Positions 21,378 to 35,085 of a DNA stretch of 64,000 bases are shown piece after piece. This DNA comes from a bacterium (lineage in GTDB: Bacteria > Hinthialibacterota > Hinthialibacteria > Hinthialibacterales > Hinthialibacteraceae). Made by a program: the position numbers and the translations under genes. The notes beneath the pieces were generated by a model. That model was not told the origin of the DNA. It did no database searches and saw only the letters and a list, made by a program, of their open reading frames with translations. The stretch lies in the NCBI GenBank assembly GCA_016125385.1, contig WGLV01000006.1, positions 1-64,000 of the forward strand. The letters are read 5' to 3'. Every line of letters starts with the position of its first letter. Position 1 is the stretch's first letter.

Positions 21378-22091
21378 ATGGATTCGCGGACCCTGGTTTT
21401 TTTACCGACTTACAACGAGCGTGAAAACCTCGTCGACCTCATCGAACAACTCTTCGCCCTCGGGCGCAACCTCTCCGTACTGGTGGTCGACGATCTCTCG
21501 CCGGACGGCACCGGCGAGCTCGCCGAAAAACTCGCCGAACAATACCGGGGCAAGATTCGAGTGATTCATCGCGACGGCCCGCGCGGGCGCGGTCACGCCG
21601 GTGTGACGGGGCTGCGCGAGGCGGCCGCTTCGCCGTGCGATTATGTCGTCGAGATGGACGCCGACCTGTCTCATCACCCCAGCGACCTCCCCCGCCTGCT
21701 CGACGCCGCCAGCGGCGCCGATCTGGTGATCGGTTCGCGTTACGTTGAAGGCGGGCGCACCGAAAATTTCGGCTGGTTCCGCGTTTTGAACAGCCGCGTC
21801 GCGGCGGGGCTGACCTGGCTGTTTCTCGGCCTCGGTTATACCGATCCCACGTCGGGCTACCGCGTCTACCGCCGCGATCTGCTCGCCAGGCTCCCGTGGG
21901 ACAAAATGATCTCTCCGGGACCCTCCATCGTTGAAGAAACCTTATATTACATCCAGCGCGAGGGCGCCCGCATCGCCGAAGTTCCCATCACCTTCCGCGA
22001 ACGTCAGGAAGGCCGCTCGAAACTCAACGTCTGGATCCGGGTGCGATGGATACTCGCCATGCTGCGGATCCGCCGGGCGGCCAACTCGTGA
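21378..22091 (+). CDS. DPM1-like polyprenyl-phosphate sugar synthase (GT2)
   Basis: A 237-residue family 2 glycosyltransferase of the dolichol-phosphate mannose synthase type. It has 'LPTYNERENLVDLI', D38-D39 'DDLSPDGTG', the metal-binding D94-A-D96 in 'VEMDADLSHHP', 'GSRYVEGG' and 'DPTSGYRVY'. No C-terminal membrane helices, as in the soluble DPM1/Ppm1 form. Known members move a sugar from a nucleotide to polyprenyl phosphate at the inner face of the membrane. This would feed the GT-C proteins around it. Its last codons overlap a GTG start of the next gene by 4 bp. Confidence 0.88.
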   Translation: MDSRTLVFLPTYNERENLVDLIEQLFALGRNLSVLVVDDLSPDGTGELAEKLAEQYRGKIRVIHRDGPRGRGHAGVTGLREAAASPCDYVVEMDADLSHHPSDLPRLLDAASGADLVIGSRYVEGGRTENFGWFRVLNSRVAAGLTWLFLGLGYTDPTSGYRVYRRDLLARLPWDKMISPGPSIVEETLYYIQREGARIAEVPITFRERQEGRSKLNVWIRVRWILAMLRIRRAANS

Positions 22092-23536
22092 ACGCCGCCG
22101 CCGAACCGCGCGGTCTGATTGCGATGCGCGCGGCGCTGTGGGCGGGGTGCGTACTGTACGCGTTGCTGTTCGTCTATCATGGCGTGCGGGTCGCGGCTTA
22201 TCCCTACGATCTCGATAACAGCGAAGGGTTTCTGCTCTACCAGTCGATGCGTCTCGCTCATGGCGAGTTTCTTTACCCGACGCTTGGCGGCGACCCGCCC
22301 TGGCTCGTTGACAATTACCCGCCGTTGTATCCGCTGGCGGGCGCTTTGGGCGTCAAACTGTTCGGTCCCTCGTTGCAATGGCTTCGCTTCATATCGCTGG
22401 CTTCCACCATCGGAGCGGCGGCGTTGCTCGGCGTCTGGGCCTATCTGAAAACGCGCGTCCGGTCGGCGGGGTGGATGGCCGCGCTGGTCTATCTTTCGTT
22501 TTACCACGTCTACAACTGGGGAGCCCTGGCGCGCGTTGACGCACTCGGCGGCTTGTTCGCCATCGCCGCGCTGGTCTGGTTTGAATGGCGCGGCGGTTGG
22601 AAGATGGCGGCGCTGTTCTGTCTGCTGGCGTTGTTCACCAAACAGTCGTTGATCGCGGCGCCGGCGGCGATCGCCCTCTCGTTGTTTTTTCAAAATCGGC
22701 GCAAGGCGGCGTCGTTCATCGCCTCACTGATGGTGTCGGGCGCCATGCTGCTCGGGCTGATGTTGCTCGCCTCTTCAGGCCGCGCCTGGATTCATCTGGT
22801 TTCGTATAATGTGAACGCGTTTTACTGGCTCGACGTCTGGCTCAACTTTCGCCACTGGTTTATGTTTTATACGGTGTGGGGCGCCGCGCCGCTCGCCTTG
22901 CTGATCGTGTTCGGCCGGGCCGACGTCTCATTCTGGTTTACGCTGTTCGCCATCGGTGAAGCGCTGCTCTGCGGAAAAATCGGTTCCGCGCCCAATTATT
23001 TTCTGTCGCTGGCCGCATCGGCGTCATTGGGGACCGGGCTGCTCTATGGCTGGCTCGCGCGCGGCGGCGATTCGAACCGCACGGGCATGGTATTATTCGT
23101 AGTCGCGGGGCTGCTTCAACTGGCCGCTACCATCCACTGGCCTCACACCCCGCTGGACTTCGCCGCGACGCCGGGGCGTTCCGACGCGCAGGCCGGTCGT
23201 CTCGCGGTGGAATACCTCAAGCAGGTCGAGGGGCCCGTGTATGCCGAACTGGCGGGCCTGGGCGTCGCCGCCGGTCATCCGCCCGTGATGATGTCGTTTA
23301 TCTGTACGCAACTGGCGCATGAGGGGATATGGAACCCCGAGCCGATGCTTGAGCGCATCCGTGAACGCCGGTTCGCCGCCATTGCGCTTCAGTTCAACCT
23401 CGCGTCGCCTGAGTGGGACCGCCGCCGCTTTCTTGAAAGCGCTATCGCCGCCATGCGGGAAAATTACTCACTGGCGCGACAGGTCGGCCCCTGGTTCATT
23501 TATCGGCCCCGCGCCGCCGAATCCGCGCAAGGGTGA
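22088..23536 (+). CDS. GT39/GT-C-type membrane glycosyltransferase
   Basis: A 482-residue polytopic protein. It has about 10 membrane helices and a first outer loop 'YPYDLDNSEGFLLYQSMRLAHG', then 'DNYPPLYPL', the layout of ArnT/PMT-type transferases with an acidic residue pair after helix 1. The soluble C-terminus has about 80 residues. The GTG start at 22088 is chosen because it overlaps the preceding stop as GTGA; ATG at 22124 is possible. Translational coupling to the DPM-like synthase strongly suggests it uses the polyprenyl-phosphate sugar that enzyme makes. Confidence 0.72.
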   Translation: MNAAAEPRGLIAMRAALWAGCVLYALLFVYHGVRVAAYPYDLDNSEGFLLYQSMRLAHGEFLYPTLGGDPPWLVDNYPPLYPLAGALGVKLFGPSLQWLRFISLASTIGAAALLGVWAYLKTRVRSAGWMAALVYLSFYHVYNWGALARVDALGGLFAIAALVWFEWRGGWKMAALFCLLALFTKQSLIAAPAAIALSLFFQNRRKAASFIASLMVSGAMLLGLMLLASSGRAWIHLVSYNVNAFYWLDVWLNFRHWFMFYTVWGAAPLALLIVFGRADVSFWFTLFAIGEALLCGKIGSAPNYFLSLAASASLGTGLLYGWLARGGDSNRTGMVLFVVAGLLQLAATIHWPHTPLDFAATPGRSDAQAGRLAVEYLKQVEGPVYAELAGLGVAAGHPPVMMSFICTQLAHEGIWNPEPMLERIRERRFAAIALQFNLASPEWDRRRFLESAIAAMRENYSLARQVGPWFIYRPRAAESAQG

Positions 23537-23624
23537 CCGATTGCGTGCGAATGAAGGTACAATAAGGAATTAATGGTTGGACGCCTTTTTTCTGTTTGCT
23601 GATCCCATCTGAGAGAGTACGGCT

Positions 23625-24653
23625 ATGGTTGAATTGTATTCCGAATTACGCAAAGACCCGCTTCGCGGTGAATGGGTGCTGATCGCGCCGCATCCCCAGC
23701 GTGAACACCTCGCCAATATTCCCCGTGAAGACTGGCCCCAGACCGCTGATGCGGTTTTCGCCGATCCCGAGGGCGCGGGGGCGCAGGTGTTGTGGAGCCG
23801 CTGTCAGGCGATACCCGATCATGAAGAGATCGTCATTCGCGTGATCGCCAACCGCCATCCGCTCTATCGCGTCGAATACAAGGACGGCGTCGACGAAATG
23901 GGCGTCTACCGCCGGATGAGCGGCCTCGGCGCGCATGAAATCTTCATCGAGAGCGACCGCCCCGCCGACTCGTTGCTCACCATGAGCGAGGCGCATTATT
24001 CGATGGTTCTTGAGGCGCTTCAGGAACGAATTAAAGACCTCAAACGCGACTTCCGCCTCAAATCATTCTCTTTTTTCCGGGAATGGGCTTGCGGCAAAAC
24101 GCCTCCCCAGGTGCATCCTCATTCTCAAATGGTGGTCAGTTCGATCGTCCCCGCCGGTCTGGAACGTGAACTGGCGCTGGCCCTTCAATACCATAAAGAG
24201 AATGGACGCTGCCCCGTCTGCGCCATGATCGAGCAGGAAATCGCTGAAGACGCCCGCGTCGTATTCCGTTCGGAACGAATCGCCGCGTATTGTCCTTACG
24301 CTTCACGCGCCCCGTTTGAAGTGCATATCGCCCCGCGTGAACATCAGGCCTGCTTCAGCCGCGAACCGATGGAGATGCTTTCTCAACTCGCCGACGCGAT
24401 CAAATCCGTCGCGTTGCGTCTCGACCGGGCTCTGCCGGGATGGATGCTGGTCATGGCCCTCCGCACCAAACCCGCCATTCCTGACGATACCAGACAGGAT
24501 AAACTCGCCGATCAGGCGTATCACTGGCGCGTTGAATTTATCCCCCGGCCGCCCGGCGACTCTCTCTGGGCTGAACGCACCGGTTCGCCGATTATTCACA
24601 CCCCGCCTGAACACGCCGCCGCCTGGCTGCGCGAGCTGGGCGCGTCTGCATGA
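23625..24653 (+). CDS. galT: Galactose-1-phosphate uridylyltransferase-like protein
   Basis: A 342-residue HIT-superfamily nucleotidyltransferase. The N-terminal 'SELRKDPLRGEWVLIAP', 'NRHPLYRVE' and the catalytic H164-P-H-S-Q168 are those of GalT, which exchanges UMP between UDP-glucose and galactose-1-phosphate. The C-terminal half ends in 'YHWRVEFIPR', the second HIT-like module. Cysteine pair C196-x-x-C199 is an extra possible zinc site. In archaeal and some bacterial homologues the true substrate can differ, so the exact sugar is less sure than the family. The stop overlaps the next gene's ATG (ATGA). Confidence 0.85.
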   Translation: MVELYSELRKDPLRGEWVLIAPHPQREHLANIPREDWPQTADAVFADPEGAGAQVLWSRCQAIPDHEEIVIRVIANRHPLYRVEYKDGVDEMGVYRRMSGLGAHEIFIESDRPADSLLTMSEAHYSMVLEALQERIKDLKRDFRLKSFSFFREWACGKTPPQVHPHSQMVVSSIVPAGLERELALALQYHKENGRCPVCAMIEQEIAEDARVVFRSERIAAYCPYASRAPFEVHIAPREHQACFSREPMEMLSQLADAIKSVALRLDRALPGWMLVMALRTKPAIPDDTRQDKLADQAYHWRVEFIPRPPGDSLWAERTGSPIIHTPPEHAAAWLRELGASA

Positions 24654-25636
24654 GAGCCGCCGCCGCGCTGAAGCGGGCCGCGTGGCTGCTGGTGGTCACG
24701 GCGGCGCTGACGGCGGGTTTGTATCTCGCGCGCGGCCTGCCGCCGGTGGGCGCCGACGGCCCCTACATGGCGCGTCTTATCGAGCGTGAAACCGTCCCGA
24801 TGTATTACCGTTCACTGCTGACGTTGTGGATCCATCGCGCCTGTTACGCCGCGCTGTCTCCGTTGGGTTGGGATGGAGAGCGTGCGATGGCGTTCAGCAG
24901 CGCGCTGGCGGGCGCCTTCGCCTTGCAGGCGTTATGGGCGTTGCGCCCCCGCGCCGCCTTCATCGCGATCAACGTGTTGTGCGGTTCGTTTCTGGTCTTT
25001 GTGGGCCATATCGAGAACTACGCCTGGGTTAACGCGTTTCTCATCGCTTCATACCTCTATCTTCAGCGCTGGTTCGAGGGGCGCGCTCCTCTCTGGCCCG
25101 CGATGACGTTCTTTTTTCTCGCCGCGCTTTCACACATGCTGGCGTTGTTTTATGCGCCCGCCTTCGTTTACGCCTTGCGGAAAAATCCGCGTTTCAATCC
25201 GCTGGAGGCGTTGATCCCCCTGCTGGCGTTCATTTCCATCGTTGTGACGCTTTCGCTCTGTTGTACGATGCAGGGAACCGAAATCGGTCTCGAACGGCTC
25301 GTCCCGCTGCTTGAACGCTGGAAGGCCAAAAACCACTGGTTTACTTTTTTTTCATGGGAACATCTCAAGATGCTGGCCTGGTTTCATCAGCGCGCGGCGT
25401 TTCTCGGCGTCCCCATCGAGTTGCCGCTGTTATGGATGCTTCGCCGCCGCGTTCAGACGCCGTTTCAGAAATTTCTCGTCATCAATGTGTTTTGCGGGTT
25501 GGCGTGGACGACGATCTGGCATCCTGATTGGGGGGCGATGGATTGGGATCTCTTCAGTCAGTTCGCGATTCCATTACACGTATTGCTCGGGCTTCTGATC
25601 GTAAAACCGGCTGGGAATAATGAAACATCAGCTTGA
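24650..25636 (+). CDS. Polytopic membrane protein, probable GT-C relative
   Basis: A 328-residue hydrophobic protein with about 8 membrane helices. It overlaps galT by 4 bp, so the two are coupled. The outer loop after helix 1 has 'GADGPYMARLIERE', with an acidic residue near the place GT-C enzymes keep theirs. 'GHIENYAWVNAF' follows helix 3 and recalls other hypothetical glycosyltransferases. No confident family match. Context suggests a role in glycan assembly. Confidence 0.55.
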   Translation: MRAAAALKRAAWLLVVTAALTAGLYLARGLPPVGADGPYMARLIERETVPMYYRSLLTLWIHRACYAALSPLGWDGERAMAFSSALAGAFALQALWALRPRAAFIAINVLCGSFLVFVGHIENYAWVNAFLIASYLYLQRWFEGRAPLWPAMTFFFLAALSHMLALFYAPAFVYALRKNPRFNPLEALIPLLAFISIVVTLSLCCTMQGTEIGLERLVPLLERWKAKNHWFTFFSWEHLKMLAWFHQRAAFLGVPIELPLLWMLRRRVQTPFQKFLVINVFCGLAWTTIWHPDWGAMDWDLFSQFAIPLHVLLGLLIVKPAGNNETSA

Positions 25637-26479: not shown

Positions 26480-28429
26480 TCAGTACAGCCTCCACGACTC
26501 GATCGCCACTGGCGGCGCTCCCAGCCGCTGCCGGACGTAATTCAGCACGTAGGGCGTCCGCTGATCGATGAAGTCGTTCGCCCAGCCCACCGCTTTTTCC
26601 CAGTCGGCGGGTCTCTTGTCCTTCCCCCACTTGTCCGCCTCTCCAGGAATCGCGGGGCGGATCAGGTCGGCCAGCTCATTGAGCCGGGCGTGGACGTGAT
26701 CCGGCGCCAGCGCGCCCTCCAGGTGATCTTGCAGCCGCCGCCAGAAATACCGGCGATAGCCCGCGTTTTTGCAGAGAAAGTTAAACAGCGCGCCCGGCGC
26801 GTAATTAATGTCGTTGGCGTTGTCCATGGTGTTCTGATCGACGCGAAACCCCTGGCTGCCCGAACCGAACGAATACTCCACGTCCCATGAAAAAAACATC
26901 CACCCCGCGTTAGCGGTGCGTTCGCGTCCCGCGTACCAGTTATGGCGCGGCCAGTCGTAATTCTGAAGCCACACGTTGAGAATGATGTAATCGGTCAGGT
27001 TGTCGACGTCGACGAAATGCCCCAGTTCGTTGACTTCCTCGTCCGTCGCCGTGGAATGATTTCTCACCCACTGCGTCATGTCCGTGAATGCCTGCAGGTC
27101 TCCGTCTTTCGCTTCGCCGTCTGAGATGACGTCCCAGTCGTCGTCGTTGATGTAATAACGCATGAAGTTGTCGTTGATGCGTTCCGACGGGTTATAGATC
27201 CCCCAGTATTCGCCGTTGAGGTATAACTCGGTGAAAACGCCTTTCGCTTCGGGCCGGCCCATGTCGGCGCCGAGGTTGCGCGCCGTCTGGTCGCTGATAA
27301 GAATCGCGGTGGGGCGTTGCGATTCGTTGTCGTACCCCCAACTGTCGTTAAAGCCCGCTCTCAACACCAGCCGGTCGTAGTTCGCGCGCTCGCCGCCCAG
27401 AACGGGATAGGTCAACCGCGCCGGGCCGTATCGCGCCCTGAAGTACAGCCGGAACGATTTCTTCGGCGAACGCGTGCGAGAGGCTCCGCCGTGTATCCGC
27501 AACCCGCAGTCGACGCCGAACCGCCGCGTTCCGTCTTCGCCGATCCATTCCACCGAGGTTGGGCGTTCCCACGCCTCGCCGTACTGAGTGGGGTTGGCGT
27601 AAATTCCGGTTCGCGCGTTGAACAGGTTGGCGGGCTCAGTGACGACAGACACGATGGGCAGCGTCTGATCGCCGCGCATCACGTAGGTATTGGTCATAAT
27701 CGGGCTGGAGCCGTAATCGGTGCGGTACGCCCGCGCCCGGATGATGGAGGTCCCCGCGATCTCGATGGGCTGCGTATAGCGGTTGTCGCGCGTGTTGGGT
27801 TCTGAACCGTCAGTGGTGTAATAGATGCGCGCGTCCGCTTCGGCGGAAAGACTCAGGCTGAGCGTGGAGCGGTACACCCCGCCGGGAGGATCGAAAACCG
27901 GCGCGGCCGCGAAACCAATGACGCCGGCGCCGTTGGGTTGATTGGGGCTGGGCGAGGTGAAGTACAGCCACTGAGCGGGGTCGCTCGCCGAGCGGCCGTA
28001 TGAGACGTCGTAATGATGCTCGACGACGGGCGCCCGGTCGATTTCTTCGCTCAGCGAATTGTACAGTACGAGCGGCTCGCCTTCGCGATTCAGTTGAAAG
28101 TTGAGGTGGAACTCGCCTGCCGAGATCGTCCCGCGGCCGGTGGCGTAAACCAGCGTCAGCCCGCCCGGCGGAAGATTCAGCGCAGGGAAAATCCATTTAC
28201 GCGGCGCCAGCGGATCGTCGCTCAGGCTGTAGCCCGCCAGGTCGATGGCCTCCGGACCGGTGTTGATCAACTCCACCCATTCCAGCGCGTCTCCCTGATC
28301 GTCTTCGCTGGAGGTGTATGCGAGAAATTCATTGATCCGCACATCCGCCTGGGCCGAAATGTGGATCAACGCGGCGCACAAAAAGAACGTCAGGCGCGTG
28401 AGGCGCCCTGAAATATACAAGTCACTCAT
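26480..28429 (-). CDS. Secreted lamin-tail / CotH-kinase-like protein
   Basis: A 649-residue exported protein with an N-terminal signal peptide ('LTFFLCAALIHISAQA'). Domain order: lamin-tail domain (about 28-135; 'VRINEFLAYTSSEDDQGDALEW', 'VELINTG'), a chitobiase/beta-hexosaminidase C-terminal-type module (about 190-255; 'ARIYYTTDGSEPN'), then a CotH-like kinase domain (about 290-590; 'GLRIHGGASR..PKKSFRLYFR', 'GVFTELYLNGEYWGIYNPSERI', 'WFFSWDVEYSFG'-like region). CotH proteins of spores phosphorylate other coat proteins; bacterial lamin-tail versions are secreted with unknown substrates. ATG at 28429 has AGGGG 6 nt upstream; two ATGs precede it directly. It ends 'AIESWRLY', matching other secreted proteins of the window. 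Confidence 0.87.
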   Translation of the reverse strand: MSDLYISGRLTRLTFFLCAALIHISAQADVRINEFLAYTSSEDDQGDALEWVELINTGPEAIDLAGYSLSDDPLAPRKWIFPALNLPPGGLTLVYATGRGTISAGEFHLNFQLNREGEPLVLYNSLSEEIDRAPVVEHHYDVSYGRSASDPAQWLYFTSPSPNQPNGAGVIGFAAAPVFDPPGGVYRSTLSLSLSAEADARIYYTTDGSEPNTRDNRYTQPIEIAGTSIIRARAYRTDYGSSPIMTNTYVMRGDQTLPIVSVVTEPANLFNARTGIYANPTQYGEAWERPTSVEWIGEDGTRRFGVDCGLRIHGGASRTRSPKKSFRLYFRARYGPARLTYPVLGGERANYDRLVLRAGFNDSWGYDNESQRPTAILISDQTARNLGADMGRPEAKGVFTELYLNGEYWGIYNPSERINDNFMRYYINDDDWDVISDGEAKDGDLQAFTDMTQWVRNHSTATDEEVNELGHFVDVDNLTDYIILNVWLQNYDWPRHNWYAGRERTANAGWMFFSWDVEYSFGSGSQGFRVDQNTMDNANDINYAPGALFNFLCKNAGYRRYFWRRLQDHLEGALAPDHVHARLNELADLIRPAIPGEADKWGKDKRPADWEKAVGWANDFIDQRTPYVLNYVRQRLGAPPVAIESWRLY

Positions 28430-28565
28430 CATCATCCCCTGCACGGTCAGAAAAAACGCATGGCATTCAGGCGCGGCGCGCCCGCGCAACAAACAGTATC
28501 ATATTACGATTGAATTATCGACTGGAAAATCGATGGAATCTGGAAGGGGGTGTTTAATATACGGC

Positions 28566-29222
28566 CTACCGGCTTTTCGTGACGCCCACTCGCCTGCAGT
28601 AAGGCGTCAGCAGACATTGCGAACATTTCGGCGAGATCGGCGCGCACAGGTTCTGCCCGTAACAAACCAGCAGGTCGTTGATCTCGATCCAGTATTCTTT
28701 CGGCAGTTTTTTACGCAGGGCGGTTTCGGTTTGATCGGGCGTCTTCGTTTTGACGTAACCCCACCGGTTGCTGATGCGATGCACGTGCGTGTCGACGCAG
28801 ATACCCGGCAGGTTGTGACCCAGCGTCACCACCAGGTTCGCGGTTTTGCGGCCCACGCCGTTCAACGTCAATAACTCGTCGATCTCCGCCGGAACCTCGC
28901 CGCCGTAGCGTTCCAGCAACGCCCGGCATACGTCGTGGATGCTTTTCGCCTTGGTGTTATAAAAGCCGACCGGATAGATGAGTTGCGCCAGTTCTTCGAC
29001 GGGAATCTTCAACACGCCCCGAGGGGTGCGCGCTCGTTTTTGCAGGCGCCTGAAGGCCGTTGCCGTGGTCTCGTCCTTGGTGCGCAGACTGAGGATGCAC
29101 GAGATCAGCACCGCGAAGGGATCTCGGTCTTTCCCGGCCACCACCGTGACGGCTGGAGTCTTCCATTTCGCCGTCTCTTGCCGTAGGATACACACGGCTT
29201 CATGAATATCTTGAGTTTTCAT
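28566..29222 (-). CDS. nth: Endonuclease III (DNA glycosylase/AP lyase)
   Basis: A 218-residue base-excision repair enzyme acting on oxidised pyrimidines. The helix-hairpin-helix 'LNGVGRKTANLVV' carries the catalytic K126, and 'VDTHVHRISNRWG' carries D144. The [4Fe-4S] ligands C193-x6-C200-x2-C203-x5-C209 are complete. Normal length. Single gene, head-to-head with the 1,921-residue protein. Confidence 0.95.
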   Translation of the reverse strand: MKTQDIHEAVCILRQETAKWKTPAVTVVAGKDRDPFAVLISCILSLRTKDETTATAFRRLQKRARTPRGVLKIPVEELAQLIYPVGFYNTKAKSIHDVCRALLERYGGEVPAEIDELLTLNGVGRKTANLVVTLGHNLPGICVDTHVHRISNRWGYVKTKTPDQTETALRKKLPKEYWIEINDLLVCYGQNLCAPISPKCSQCLLTPYCRRVGVTKSR

Positions 29223-29319: not shown

Positions 29320-32300
29320 ATGGCTACCGCTGAAAAACGAACACTCGCCGCGCTCGCGTTGCTGATGATTTTCGCGCTGGCGCTGGTTTTACGTTTTGAT
29401 GGAATCGACTGGGCGCTTAAGGATGGAACCTATTCGTTTCACCCCGATGAACGCCACGTCGAAAACACCATCAACAGTCTGCGTCCCCAGGGGCTCAACG
29501 CCGATGAACTGGGGCTCCCGCTGTGGGAGAAGACGCGCCGGCTGTATGAACGCAACCTGAAAGTCGCCGATCCAGACGCGCCGGTGACGCCCGGTTCGCC
29601 CGGCCTGCGCCCCATCAATTACAACTACGGCACGCTGCCCAACTTTCTCTACCTGTTCTATCAGCGCTATCTGCAGGCATCGTACATCCCCGCGAGCGGA
29701 GGCCAGCCAGGCGGCGAGTGGGTATTTCTTCGCTTTCCGGGCGCGCTCGGTTTTCTGGCTCTGCTGATCGCGATCGGCGTGGGCGTGTGGATGTACCGCG
29801 CGCTCTGGCATGACATCACTCACGTTGAAAAATGCGTCAGACCCTGGCATCAGGATCCGCGCCGGTTGTTCTACGCCATCCCCTGTCTGTTGCTGCCGCT
29901 GGTGGGCTTGTTCGTCGCGGTCGCCGCGCCCCATTGGGTGACCGATTTCTCCCGCTATACGCCGGGGCCTTCTTCTTCGTTGCTGATCGGCCGCATGGTG
30001 ACCGCCTGGGCGGGCGCGTTCACCGTCTTGTTCGTCTATCTCATCGGACGCCACGCCTATAACGCCCTCGCCGGGCTGATCGGCGCCTTTTTTCTCGCGA
30101 CGGCGATGCTGCACGTCCAGAGCAGCCACTTCGCCACCGTCGACGTTCTACTTGGTTTTTTCGCCACAGCGGCTTGTTTTTTCATGCTGCGTCTCAGCCA
30201 GACCGCGCGGCTTCACTGGTATCTGCTTTCCGCCGCCGCCGTCGCCTGCGCCGCCGCCACCAAATGGAGCGGCCTGCTGTTGCTCGCGCCCTTCTTCATC
30301 GCTCACGCCGTTGCTCTGTTCTCCAGACAGGGCAAGCGCGCGGCCGTTCGCTGGATCCATCTCTTCTGGCTGATCTATACCGGATTCTTCCTGCTTCAGT
30401 TTCTGCGCGCCGCCACCTCCATCAATCCGCCGCTCAATGAAACCATCGGCGCGTGGTGGTCGTTGTGCTGGAGATGGTCGCCGCTGTTTGCGTTGATCGA
30501 GCTCGCCGCCTTTGCTTTGTCGTTGTACCTGCTTCGCTTGAAAATGGCATGGGATGGACGTGAGAAGGGCTGGATCGCCGACGCGTGGCGCGTCTATCGC
30601 CCCTGGGTCTGGTTTAGTCTGGCGGTCGGCTTTGGTCTCGCTGTCTTCTTCGCCGCCGAACCCTTCGCCTTCCTCGACGCCAATCACTTCGCGCAGGATA
30701 TGGCGCGCGAAGCCGCGTACAACAGCACCGGCGAAATCTCCATCTGGTATACCCAGCAGTTCAATCACACCATCCCGGTCATCACTTCGCTGGATAACCT
30801 CTTTTATCCGTCGCTCGATTACCTGACCGCCTTTTTCGTGGTGGGCGGCTGTCTGTACGCCCTGTGGCGAATGCTGGCCGGCGCGAATTCCGCCGACGTG
30901 TTTCTCTGTGCGTTCGTCATCCCCGCGTTTTTCATTCTCACCTCGGCCCACAGTAAATACCCGCGTTACATGCTGATGGTGCTTCCGGTGATGACCGCGC
31001 TGGGCGGGCGCTTTCTCGCCGATATGATTCGCCTTCAGCCCGCGTTCTACACGCCCGGCGCGCCAGGGCTTGGTTTCGCCGCCCGGCGCTGGGTCCGCCG
31101 CCTCGGCTTCGTCCTCGGCGCGGCGGCGATGGTGAGCGGGTTGATCTACGGCGTGTCTTACGTCGGGGTCTATCATCGCCCTCATACGCTGGTGCAGGCT
31201 TCGCGCTATATGAAAAGCGTGCTCAAATCCAGCGACGTGGTGCTGGTCAATAACGTCGATGAAGGGGGCGGGTTCCCCAATACCGTCGAACTGGGTTTTC
31301 ATTACGCCGGACCCGACGGCCGGCTCTATCTTGAGTCAGCCAATTACTACGCCGAAAAACTCGCTCAGGCCGACTACATTATTTTCCGCAGCAAGCGCCC
31401 GTATGGCACCACACTGCAAAACCCCGATCTCTATCCGGCGGTCAACCAGTTTCTTCGCGTATTATTTTCAGAGCAGCTCGGTTTTCGCATCGAAAAGGTG
31501 TTCACCAATCCACCGCGTTTTCTCGGGCTTGAGTTCCGCGTCGATGAAGAAGATGAAACCGCTCGTATTTACGATCACCCCAAGGTGATCGTCTTCAAAA
31601 AAAATCAGAACCTGAGCGTTGACGCCATGCGCCGCCTGCTGATGCAGCCGCCCGAGTGGATACAGCGGATCGGCGCGAGCGAGATTCTGCGCGTCAGAGA
31701 AGGCCATCCCGTGTTTCAGCACGTCAATGCGTTCCCCGTGCTGCGCTATTGGATCGCCCTGCAGCTGGTCGGCCTGATCGGCTTCCTGCTGATTTTCCCG
31801 CTTTGTTCGCGAATGCCCGACGGCGGCTGGGGCGTATCCAAGATCGCCGGGCTCGCGCTCTGGACGTGGTTCAGCTGGATGATGGCGTCCACCGGCGTCA
31901 TGTCCGCTTCACCGCTTCAATTCGCGCTGGCTTTTCTCGCGCTCGCGGCGGCGGCCGCCTTCGCCGCGTGGCGGTATCGCGATGACCTGCGCGCTTTCTT
32001 TACAAAGCGCGCTGCGGCTGTCGTTGGTCTTGAACTGCTCTTTCTGGCGATCTGGGCGTTCTTCCTGATCGTTCGCGCTTGGCATCCGGCGGCGGCCTGG
32101 GGCGAAAAGCCAATGAACTTCTCTTTCGTCAACGCCGTATACCGCGCTTCGACGTTCCCGCCCGAAGACCCCTGGATCAGCGGCGAGTCGATCAACTACT
32201 ACTACTACGGCCACATGATTTATTCGCTGCTGGGGCGCGCCGCCGGGCTCGACCCCGAATATCTTTTCACCATTGGCGCGGCTTCCATCGGCGGCCTGAC

Positions 32301-35085
32301 GGCGCTGGGCGTGTTTTCAGTCGCCTTTGCGTTGTGCCGCCGCGTCTGGCTCTCGCTGTTCTCCGTCTGGCTTTACCTGTTTTCCGCGCATGTGATCACG
32401 TTTTTCCAGATGGTACGCGTCGCGCTCAAACAGGACCCGGGGCTCTACGCCTCATGGAGCGATTGCGCGCGTGCGCTGGGGACGATTCTGCATTGGCTAT
32501 GGCTCTCCGTCAGCGTATGGCTGGGTTTTGGCGGTGAGGTCGCGCGGCTGGAGTTATTCCAGTTGGATTACGACCGCCTCTTCTGGGCGGCGCGCACCAT
32601 CTGGCCCAACGTGGTCGCCAACGAATTCCCCTACTGGACGAATCTGTTCGCCGACTTCCACGCCCACATGCTGGTGGTTCCGTTTTCTCTGGCGTATCTG
32701 TACATGCTCTACGCCATGTTCTCGCGCCCGCGCCTCGAACTCACCGCTTCGTTATGGAGCGGCTTCGCCGCCTGGCTCGCGCTTATGCTGGGCGTGGTGA
32801 CCTGCACCAACACCTGGGACGCCCCCGGTCTTGTTATTGCGCTCGCGCTGACCCTGCTGGTGAAATGGACGCGTGAATCCGAATTGCTGCTGTCACGGCG
32901 ACCCGTTGAATGGACCGCGCCCGCCGCGTGGCGTTCGCTGGCGTGTATGCCGCTCGCGCCGCTGGGGTCGATCCTCCTGCTCAGCGTCGTGCTGATGCTC
33001 CCCTTCCATTGCAACTTCACCTCTCGCGTCACCAGCGCCGCACTGATGACCGAGGGGCAGACCTCGCTGACGTTGTATCTTCACTGGTGGGCTCATCTCA
33101 TCCTGCCGCTGATCGCCGCCGTGTTGACCGCGGTGTTGATCCGCCGCGAGGGCGGTCTTTCCTGGAAGCGCGGCCTGGCGTTTTTCGTCATGCTGGGGGC
33201 GTCGATCGCGTTGTTCCGCCTGATCGCTTCATGGAACGTGTTTGGCTTCCCGCCGCCCATGTCGCTGAATGATCCGCCGCTCGATTACACCGTGGTCGGC
33301 GTCTTTCTGCCGTTTCTCGTGGTGCTGTTCGCTTTGCTCTGGCGGCGCGGCCGCGATGCGCGCGAGACGTTCGCGTATCTGCTCGCCTTCGTGGGGCTGG
33401 GGCTTTCGCTCGGCATCGAACTGGTCTACATCAAGGAGGGGTGGGGCCGCCCGCAGCACCGCTGGAACACGGTCTTCAAATTCAATCTTCAGACGTGGCT
33501 CTATCTCTCACTGTTCGCGCCATGCGCCTGCCTGATGGTCTGGACCGCGCTGGGCCGCTTTACATCGCGCGCCGGCGCCGCGTTCGGCTGGGTGAGCCGC
33601 GCGGGCTTTGCCGCCGTTTACGCCGGGCTGCTGGCGTTGACGCTGCCTTTCACCCTGCTCGCGCCCTCGCTGGTGACGTTCACCAACGGCGCCGAGTGGC
33701 GCGACGCGCGCGGCGAGCGCCCCACGCTCGACGCCCTCGCCTGGCTGCGTAAAGAACAATACCCCGACTACGCCGCCGTTCAGTGGTTCCAGCGTTTCGT
33801 TTCCGGTTCGCCCAACATCGTTGAGATGCCCGACGGCTATTACAACGAAGTCTCGCGCTTCTCCATCAATACCGGCCTGCCCACCGTTATCGGCTGGTCG
33901 CATCACGTGGGCGAGCGTCTTCACGTCGATCAGAAGGTCCCGCGCACGCGCGACGCCGACCTGATCTACGAGTCGGAAAATCCAAACGAAGTGCGCGGAC
34001 TTCTGGCGAAATACCAGGTCGACTACCTCGTCTTCGGCTCCATCGAGATGAACAAGCGCCGCGAGAGTTACGGCCATACGGCGTATTACGGCCCACAGTC
34101 GCTGCGCCGCATCCAGTCGATGCCCGATACGTTTCAGTTGATCTACCGCTATGACGATACCTCGCTCTTTCACGTCCGCCGCGACCTGAATGAAGCCTAC
34201 GCCCCGCCCGAACCCGCGCCGCCGCCCGCCGCCCAGTCGCCTCAGGCCGGCGCCTCGATCTGGCAGGGCGAGCGCGGGAGCGATAACGGCCAGTTTCTTG
34301 AGCCGCGCGGTCTGCTGCTCGCGCCTGACGGACGCATCGTCGTCGCCGACACTTTCAACAACCGTCTGCAGGTCTTCAACCCCGATGGAACCTTTGCGTG
34401 GAAACTGGATCGCCTCGGCCCCGACGCCGGCCCCTTCAAGGAGCCCAACGCGCTGACCGTCGATCCCGAGAGCGGCGTCTTTTACGTCGCCGACACCTGG
34501 AACAACCGCCTGGTGTTGATCGGTTCGAAGGGCGAGTTCATCGGCGCCTCGCCATCGCTGTTTTACGCGCCGCGCGGCATCGCCTTCCATCCGCAAAAAC
34601 GCCTGATCTACCTCTGCGACACCGGCAACCATCTCGTCAAGGTGATGGAACCCAGCGGCAACCTCGTCGCGACCTGGGGCGTCCCCGGCGGCGGCTCCGA
34701 TGAAAATTCGTTTCAGGAACCCGTCGGCGTGGCCGTCTCGCCCGAAGGCGACGTGCTGATCGCCGACTCGCTCAACCGCCGTGTCAAAACCTATACCGCC
34801 GATGGCCAGCTGTTGCGTATGTGGCCCATTCAGACCTCGTGGGACCAGCCCGGCGGCTATGAAACCCACCTCGCCTGCGCGCCGGATGGAACCGTCTTCC
34901 TCACCGACCCCGGCGAGGGCAGCGTCCACATTTATAACGCGACCGGCGAACTCCAGCGCAAGATCGTTACCGATGTACAGGACCGTCCGCTTGGACGTCC
35001 GGTAGGAATCGCGTTACTCGGCGATGGCCGAGTCCTCGTCACCGATATCAGCCAGCGCGGCGTCACCATGCACGTGATTCAGTGA
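29320..35085 (+). CDS. Giant GT39 - YYY (DUF2298) - NHL repeat fusion membrane protein
   Basis: A 1,921-residue protein with three parts. Residues 8-620 form a GT39/PMT-type module: D43-E44 in 'FHPDERHVENT' after helix 1 and about 12 helices. Residues 745-1560 form a YYY/DUF2298 module: a run of helices around the namesake 'GESINYYYYGHM' (958-965), 'WTNLFADFHAHM', 'NTWDAPGL' and 'IKEGWGRPQHRWNTVFKF'. Residues 1640-1921 form a six-bladed NHL propeller, each blade like 'EPRGLLLAPDGRIVVADTFN'. The GT39 part should transfer a polyprenyl-linked sugar; the YYY part is a known membrane domain of unknown activity; the propeller would bind a ligand outside. No internal stop or frameshift. It stands alone, with no operon partner. 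Confidence 0.85.
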   Translation: MATAEKRTLAALALLMIFALALVLRFDGIDWALKDGTYSFHPDERHVENTINSLRPQGLNADELGLPLWEKTRRLYERNLKVADPDAPVTPGSPGLRPINYNYGTLPNFLYLFYQRYLQASYIPASGGQPGGEWVFLRFPGALGFLALLIAIGVGVWMYRALWHDITHVEKCVRPWHQDPRRLFYAIPCLLLPLVGLFVAVAAPHWVTDFSRYTPGPSSSLLIGRMVTAWAGAFTVLFVYLIGRHAYNALAGLIGAFFLATAMLHVQSSHFATVDVLLGFFATAACFFMLRLSQTARLHWYLLSAAAVACAAATKWSGLLLLAPFFIAHAVALFSRQGKRAAVRWIHLFWLIYTGFFLLQFLRAATSINPPLNETIGAWWSLCWRWSPLFALIELAAFALSLYLLRLKMAWDGREKGWIADAWRVYRPWVWFSLAVGFGLAVFFAAEPFAFLDANHFAQDMAREAAYNSTGEISIWYTQQFNHTIPVITSLDNLFYPSLDYLTAFFVVGGCLYALWRMLAGANSADVFLCAFVIPAFFILTSAHSKYPRYMLMVLPVMTALGGRFLADMIRLQPAFYTPGAPGLGFAARRWVRRLGFVLGAAAMVSGLIYGVSYVGVYHRPHTLVQASRYMKSVLKSSDVVLVNNVDEGGGFPNTVELGFHYAGPDGRLYLESANYYAEKLAQADYIIFRSKRPYGTTLQNPDLYPAVNQFLRVLFSEQLGFRIEKVFTNPPRFLGLEFRVDEEDETARIYDHPKVIVFKKNQNLSVDAMRRLLMQPPEWIQRIGASEILRVREGHPVFQHVNAFPVLRYWIALQLVGLIGFLLIFPLCSRMPDGGWGVSKIAGLALWTWFSWMMASTGVMSASPLQFALAFLALAAAAAFAAWRYRDDLRAFFTKRAAAVVGLELLFLAIWAFFLIVRAWHPAAAWGEKPMNFSFVNAVYRASTFPPEDPWISGESINYYYYGHMIYSLLGRAAGLDPEYLFTIGAASIGGLTALGVFSVAFALCRRVWLSLFSVWLYLFSAHVITFFQMVRVALKQDPGLYASWSDCARALGTILHWLWLSVSVWLGFGGEVARLELFQLDYDRLFWAARTIWPNVVANEFPYWTNLFADFHAHMLVVPFSLAYLYMLYAMFSRPRLELTASLWSGFAAWLALMLGVVTCTNTWDAPGLVIALALTLLVKWTRESELLLSRRPVEWTAPAAWRSLACMPLAPLGSILLLSVVLMLPFHCNFTSRVTSAALMTEGQTSLTLYLHWWAHLILPLIAAVLTAVLIRREGGLSWKRGLAFFVMLGASIALFRLIASWNVFGFPPPMSLNDPPLDYTVVGVFLPFLVVLFALLWRRGRDARETFAYLLAFVGLGLSLGIELVYIKEGWGRPQHRWNTVFKFNLQTWLYLSLFAPCACLMVWTALGRFTSRAGAAFGWVSRAGFAAVYAGLLALTLPFTLLAPSLVTFTNGAEWRDARGERPTLDALAWLRKEQYPDYAAVQWFQRFVSGSPNIVEMPDGYYNEVSRFSINTGLPTVIGWSHHVGERLHVDQKVPRTRDADLIYESENPNEVRGLLAKYQVDYLVFGSIEMNKRRESYGHTAYYGPQSLRRIQSMPDTFQLIYRYDDTSLFHVRRDLNEAYAPPEPAPPPAAQSPQAGASIWQGERGSDNGQFLEPRGLLLAPDGRIVVADTFNNRLQVFNPDGTFAWKLDRLGPDAGPFKEPNALTVDPESGVFYVADTWNNRLVLIGSKGEFIGASPSLFYAPRGIAFHPQKRLIYLCDTGNHLVKVMEPSGNLVATWGVPGGGSDENSFQEPVGVAVSPEGDVLIADSLNRRVKTYTADGQLLRMWPIQTSWDQPGGYETHLACAPDGTVFLTDPGEGSVHIYNATGELQRKIVTDVQDRPLGRPVGIALLGDGRVLVTDISQRGVTMHVIQ

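Follow-up and report, generated by a model that had tools for sequence, protein, structure and literature searches.

The window, a stretch of 64,000 nucleotides of bacterial DNA, carries on its forward strand a single open frame at positions 29320-35085, which starts with ATG and encodes 1921 residues with no internal stop. ORF reading and the Pfam and NCBIfam matches together bear out the preliminary description of one uninterrupted frame uniting a PMT/GT39 module (the GT39 label of the PMT_2 module being taken over from that description), a YYY/DUF2298 module and NHL repeats. In the Pfam scan PMT_2 (PF13231) matches residues 224-353 (E 1.9e-11, 44.9 bits against a gathering score of 26.1), DUF2298 (PF10060) residues 847-1394 (E 2.1e-80, 271 against 27.8 bits) and NHL five stretches (E 1.4e-26, 91.6 against 20 bits), and in the NCBIfam scan TIGR03662 matches residues 807-1578 (374.4 bits against a cut-off of 300.25, profile positions 5-697 of 727). 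The two motifs first picked out, D43-E44 and INYYYYGH at 958-965, lie at exactly these residues, the acid pair sitting inside the motif HPDE (41-44). The features are as follows.

29320-35085, forward: whole reading frame, GT39 unit, YYY unit and NHL propeller, 1921 residues (ORF, Pfam, NCBIfam; complete orthologues in seven other genomes of the phylum)
29320-31158, forward: membrane module of GT39/PMT_2 type, residues 1-613, with 14 hydrophobic peaks (PMT_2 match and hydropathy; limits approximate)
29440-29451, forward: HPDE motif, residues 41-44, with the putative catalytic acids of GT39 (D43 and E44 in 22/22 filled rows of 24 fused modules)
31159-31752, forward: soluble domain that ends the GT39 unit, residues 614-811 (198 residues free of hydrophobic peaks; lies opposite the C-terminal domain of YYY when the profiles are globally aligned)
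31738-34053, forward: YYY/DUF2298 module, residues 807-1578 (TIGR03662, PF10060)
32104-32118, forward: EKPMN, residues 929-933 (family consensus EKPMD), opposite the GT39 HPDE loop (profile alignment, 58-row conservation)
32191-32214, forward: INYYYYGH, residues 958-965, the YYY signature (Y960 in 58/58 copies, Y962 in 57/58, G964 in 56/58)
32653-32667, forward: DFHAH, residues 1112-1116, a near-invariant D-x-H-x-H (D in 55/58, H1114 in 58/58, H1116 in 56/58)
33460-33480, forward: RWNTVFK, residues 1381-1387, with R, N, F and K invariant (58/58 each)
34249-35082, forward: six-bladed NHL beta-propeller, residues 1644-1921, with Pfam giving five blades and reading the sixth (Pfam NHL; PDB relatives)

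The hydropathy profile has 14 peaks ahead of residue 614, none in a soluble stretch (614-811), another 14 within 812-1448 and then a soluble tail ending in the propeller, a pattern that indicates two similar units in a row, each with a membrane core and a soluble domain, followed by the NHL repeats. The earlier count of six propeller blades stands for the five that pass Pfam, the sixth (about 1884-1921) being recognised by eye only. The propeller has NHL repeats in common with those of TRIM71, Brat and Thin (PDB sequences, down to E 6e-42), but these are parts of RNA- or protein-binding eukaryotic proteins, whereas here the propeller lies behind a membrane protein and is presumably extracytoplasmic. 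The YYY module resembles TIGR03662/PF10060 (Chlor_Arch_YYY, DUF2298) in its full-length match over both curated cut-offs and in the YYY motif; many members of that family stand alone (about 700-950 residues), whereas the 1921-residue protein adds GT39 in front and NHL behind. The N-terminal module shares with PMT_2/GT39-like proteins a match over the cut-off, the first-loop acids of HPDE and Lys/Arg at residues 546 and 549, but it belongs to a separate subfamily found fused to or beside YYY.

The fusion gene stands alone, with few conserved neighbours. The best of them, a divergent endonuclease III-like gene (by reading) at 28566-29222, adjoins the fusion in five genomes of the family including the source, and a sugar operon around the fusion gene was rejected because the neighbourhood is not conserved. 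Positions 21378-25636 hold a cassette in which a GT2 enzyme, by reading like polyprenyl-phosphate sugar synthases, is joined by two membrane proteins, the first polytopic, with a galT-like gene between them; this four-gene order recurs upstream of the fusion in genome G002 and was not seen beside it in other genomes. The gene at 26480-28492, whose product we take to be a lamin-tail and CotH-type secreted protein, also lies upstream of the fusion in G002 and G005. Four genomes of the family have a gene for a small protein of 117-144 residues pointing at the 3' end of the fusion gene (L064:14126-14518, L067:9091-9444, L070:5623-6048 and L071:14269-14703); a search for it in the 64,000-nucleotide window gave no convincing match (best E 0.052). 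The stand-alone YYY gene of the source genome adjoins trpC and a gamma-glutamyltranspeptidase gene.

Within the phylum the architecture is widespread. Complete GT39-YYY-NHL frames are present in eight of the 14 genomes (G000, the source, and G002, G003, G005, G006, G008, G009 and G011), so the triple fusion is no assembly accident, and these eight copies in eight genomes rule out a chance fusion or assembly artefact. They share 239 invariant columns, including HPDE and the YYY motif. A full-length orthologue with 47% identity over residues 1-1912 is found in JABLXU010000003.1, from 'Candidatus Omnitrophota bacterium isolate Ch114'. In G004, G007, G012 and G013 the fusion is seen as pieces only, cut at contig ends; G010 has a GT39-YYY frame lacking NHL and a separate YYY-NHL protein; and in G001 the modules are neighbouring genes with short overlaps, in the order YYY (766 residues), GT39 (812) and YYY-NHL (1176), the last two overlapping by 7 nt. 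Most of the genomes also encode a stand-alone YYY protein of about 750-780 residues without GT39, which is a YYY-NHL protein in G011 and G012. A profile search found DUF2298 in 14/14 genomes of the phylum, and the initial statement that YYY proteins belong mainly to Chloroflexi and archaea is therefore too narrow. PMT_2 matches number 33 in the source genome (5.53 Mb, 77 contigs) and 11 to 42 per genome across the 14, a strong expansion of GT39-like enzymes in the phylum.

The fusion is conserved outside the phylum as well, counter to the lack of such fusions in other genomes that the preliminary description named as one part of its refutation. TIGR03662, scored against its curated cut-off, is present in 33 of 386 sampled genomes, 20 of them outside the phylum (counts that ignore relatedness). 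GT39 and YYY share a single frame in 12 of these 20, of which three have the three-part form with NHL (G232, G361 and G090) and three carry two YYY copies in the fusion (G073, G214 and G344). One further genome, G021, has adjacent, divergent YYY and GT39 genes with 68 bp between them, which with the overlapping genes of G001 provides the separate-gene neighbours that the preliminary description proposed to look for, and seven have stand-alone YYY only. In the phylum of G073, which we infer to be Chloroflexota, YYY exceeds the cut-off in 129/201 genomes; among long YYY frames hand-picked from the listed matches, 20/20 have a GT39 module of the same subfamily in front and 0/20 have NHL in frame. 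These numbers indicate that GT39-YYY is common and old and that the three-part form is a rarer variant. As we understand it, TIGR03662 is documented as including a class whose members have an additional N-terminal region and two domain copies, which the GT39-YYY-YYY proteins at L119-L121 fit. YYY matches were present in both archaeal control genomes (Haloferax volcanii and Methanosarcina acetivorans). Viral contigs yielded neither YYY nor GT39-unit relatives, and plasmids gave one weak, unannotated archaeal piece (Halarchaeum) covering 29% of the query.

Both modules of the fusion trace to single lineages. The YYY tree was made from the 58 copies whose coverage of the profile exceeds 600 positions, without the shorter ones truncated at contig ends. 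In it a single branch separates the 24 fused copies and the two split copies of G001 and G021 from all others (bootstrap 83, SH-aLRT 90), and by this tree the fused YYY domains are one lineage, apart from the stand-alone YYY proteins. In a FastTree phylogeny of 74 GT39-type modules, which has long branches, the 24 fused modules and the split genes of G001 and G021 form one clade (99), the 22 Agl23 proteins are separate (100), and the 26 other PMT_2 proteins are also apart, two of them attaching just outside the fused clade. As the split genes stay in both lineages, this YYY lineage and its GT39 subfamily keep together even where the fusion is lost.

The preliminary description had raised the possibility that DUF2298 has a GT-C fold with its own acidic pair. 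Deep profiles of 58 YYY rows and 24 fused GT39 rows (hhalign, 50% gap rule) align globally end to end, with a probability of 94-97 over 504-524 columns, or 72-76 without context pseudocounts. The corresponding probability is 62 for YYY against Agl23 and 25-88, varying with column choice, against mixed PMT_2, and it is at most 4 in either mode for the MFS and Polysacc_synt controls; reversed controls reach 53 (Agl23, 111 columns) and 71 (YYY on itself, 39 columns). The profile sets comprised 22/30 Agl23, 28/30 MFS, 29/30 Polysacc_synt and 26/28 PMT_2 loci. When the target was shuffled in 40-column blocks the true global score was reached in 0/80 shuffles of fused GT39, 0/60 of Agl23 and 1/60 of PMT_2, and the true local score in 0/80, 0/60 and 0/60, respectively. 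Single local alignments show the relation weakly, and it takes the 58-row and 24-row profiles to bring it out: a shallow comparison of 16 YYY with 10 GT39 rows gave no relation (probability 0.5), a PDB sequence search with the 16-row YYY alignment returned chance matches only and none to GT-C proteins, and one with the 10-row GT39 alignment reached an archaeal oligosaccharyltransferase at E 0.93 only. The proposed relation thus draws its support from profile-profile alignment with controls and gains none from AlphaFold models, which were built from two-row alignments (window and L003) and have a pLDDT of 34.9 for the YYY module (801-1640) and 41.0 for the GT39 unit (1-807). In our view the profile similarity is good, if not conclusive, evidence for YYY being a distant GT-C relative, and Pfam, we assume, may already list DUF2298 in the GT-C clan.

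The global alignment places conserved residues of the two units in register. EKxMD of YYY falls on HPDE of GT39, the two soluble domains fall on each other, and the YYY D-x-H-x-H lies near GT39 H265-x-Q-x-S-H270. HPDE contains the paired acids of the GT39 first loop, probably on the extracytoplasmic side. The YYY loop opposite it has its own near-invariant acids, E929 (55/57 filled rows) and D950 (54/58), the latter within DPW (950-952) and close to the N959-YYYY-G964 context of the signature, and further polar residues (E1102, R1381, N1383 and K1387) are present in 58/58 copies. Position 933, opposite GT39 E44, is more variable (D in 43 of the 58 copies, N in six, E in six, G in two and a gap in one). 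Within the phylum this residue (32116-32118) is Asn in five complete fusions of family f1, including the 1921-residue protein, Glu in G008 and G009 and Asp in G011, differences that possibly reflect a change of activity within the fused lineage; with N933 in place of an acid, the YYY unit here may be altered or rest on E929.

YYY also keeps company with a further membrane protein, TIGR03663, which NCBIfam names 'flippase activity-associated protein Agl23'; the TIGRFAM curators, we believe, noted the company of TIGR03662 and TIGR03663. TIGR03663 exceeds its cut-off in 43/386 genomes and in 32/33 YYY genomes, including 20/20 outside the phylum (about 3.7/33 expected by chance, relatedness uncorrected). 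The genes often form clusters: [Agl23-NHL][YYY][GT39-YYY-NHL] in G232 and G090 (loci L124 and L127), [GT39-YYY][YYY][Agl23-like] in L287, L289, L290 and L293, and [YYY][Agl23][NHL][NHL] in both G077 and G348, where in G077 genes for a polysaccharide flippase and a GT2 enzyme come next. Like the 1921-residue protein, Agl23 is a GT-C-like membrane protein that can be fused to NHL in this phylum: the source genome encodes a TIGR03663/Agl23-NHL fusion of 1048 residues (G000:C42, L176:8748-11894), its second GT-C-like propeller protein, and four more genomes examined in the phylum have the same fusion (L177-L180). The N-terminal unit of the 1921-residue protein, in contrast, is not matched by TIGR03663 at E up to 1 and groups in a different clade. 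As NHL is also joined to stand-alone YYY (L079, L080 and L085), the propeller is attached to fused YYY, stand-alone YYY and Agl23 alike. In G192 the TIGR03663 gene after YYY has PMT_2 and PA14 matches, a layout like that in a table of PMC8756737, where a DUF2298 gene is listed with a PMT2/PA14 gene for Chloroflexi bacterium 44-23. The association of YYY with GT39, Agl23 and NHL, as read from these sequences, supports a shared pathway.

We consider it rather probable that the 1921-residue protein consists of two GT-C-type units in tandem plus a propeller, with lipid-linked sugars outside the membrane as its substrates. The GT39 unit would take a sugar from a polyprenyl-phosphate donor via its extracytoplasmic HPDE loop, the YYY unit would be a second transferase or an acceptor-handling unit of the same assembly line, and the NHL propeller would hold the acceptor glycan or protein outside the membrane, the whole working with the stand-alone YYY and the Agl23-type (TIGR03663) protein that are its cluster-mates in related bacteria. 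It is plausible that, as the preliminary description proposed from the fusion, YYY and GT39 share one lipid-linked sugar or glycoprotein as their target. According to PMC11182771, archaeal HhAgl23, termed there a putative flippase for hexose-P-dolichol, suppresses yeast Rft1 loss, and the purified protein translocates a lipid-linked oligosaccharide (M5GN2) across liposome membranes; together with the GT39 acids, this reported activity points to polyprenyl-linked sugars used outside the membrane. We advance more tentatively, and as somewhat short of an even prospect, the larger proposal that YYY/DUF2298 is an unrecognised GT-C family which, with GT39-YYY(-NHL), stand-alone YYY and Agl23(-NHL), makes up one flip-and-transfer machine for a surface glycan or glycoprotein.

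The liposome activity of HhAgl23, the name given to TIGR03663 and its co-occurrence with YYY, often in adjacent genes, would also fit membrane units that, as Agl23, chiefly move lipid-linked sugars across the membrane, as a flippase or coupled to one, rather than form glycosidic bonds. We think this unlikely, as the GT39 unit is set apart from Agl23 in both profile match and clade, its HPDE, kept in all 22 filled rows, fits a transferase, and a MATE-like Polysacc_synt protein is encoded separately in the cluster at L129. Glycosylation complexes commonly have pseudo-enzyme partners, and YYY could likewise, in this lineage at least, serve the GT39 enzyme as a catalytically dead structural partner or as an acceptor-binding unit, as Asn opposite E44 in the five f1 fusions would suggest; the invariance or near-invariance of E929, D950, D1112, H1114, H1116, R1381, N1383 and K1387 over 58 copies, and the persistence of unfused YYY in the seven outside genomes, make this quite improbable. 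It is scarcely credible that abundant, promiscuous GT39 and NHL modules (33 PMT_2 matches in the source genome, NHL matches scattered over many loci) joined YYY by chance and with no functional message, given that the fused forms of YYY and of GT39 each make up a single lineage, that split members are still adjacent and that the same GT39 subfamily is present in all 20 of the long YYY frames picked from the phylum of G073.

A literature search found nothing on a mannosyltransferase with an NHL repeat in Chloroflexi glycosylation, nor under other names of the YYY family. If the curators' note on the TIGR03662-TIGR03663 pairing and a GT-C clan placement of DUF2298 do exist, the novelty lies in the pairing of YYY with a GT39 lineage and in the NHL variants. 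YYY, a membrane family without an assigned function, gains a testable place, as one of its lineages descends jointly with one GT39 subfamily, and the company it keeps (Agl23 and propellers) together with its own conserved acids defines mutants and donors to try. Should the proposed flip-and-transfer machine be real, this phylum would have two GT-C active sites and an acceptor-binding propeller in one chain of about 1.9 thousand residues. Our findings suggest a surface-glycosylation module that may be common to several bacterial groups and archaea.
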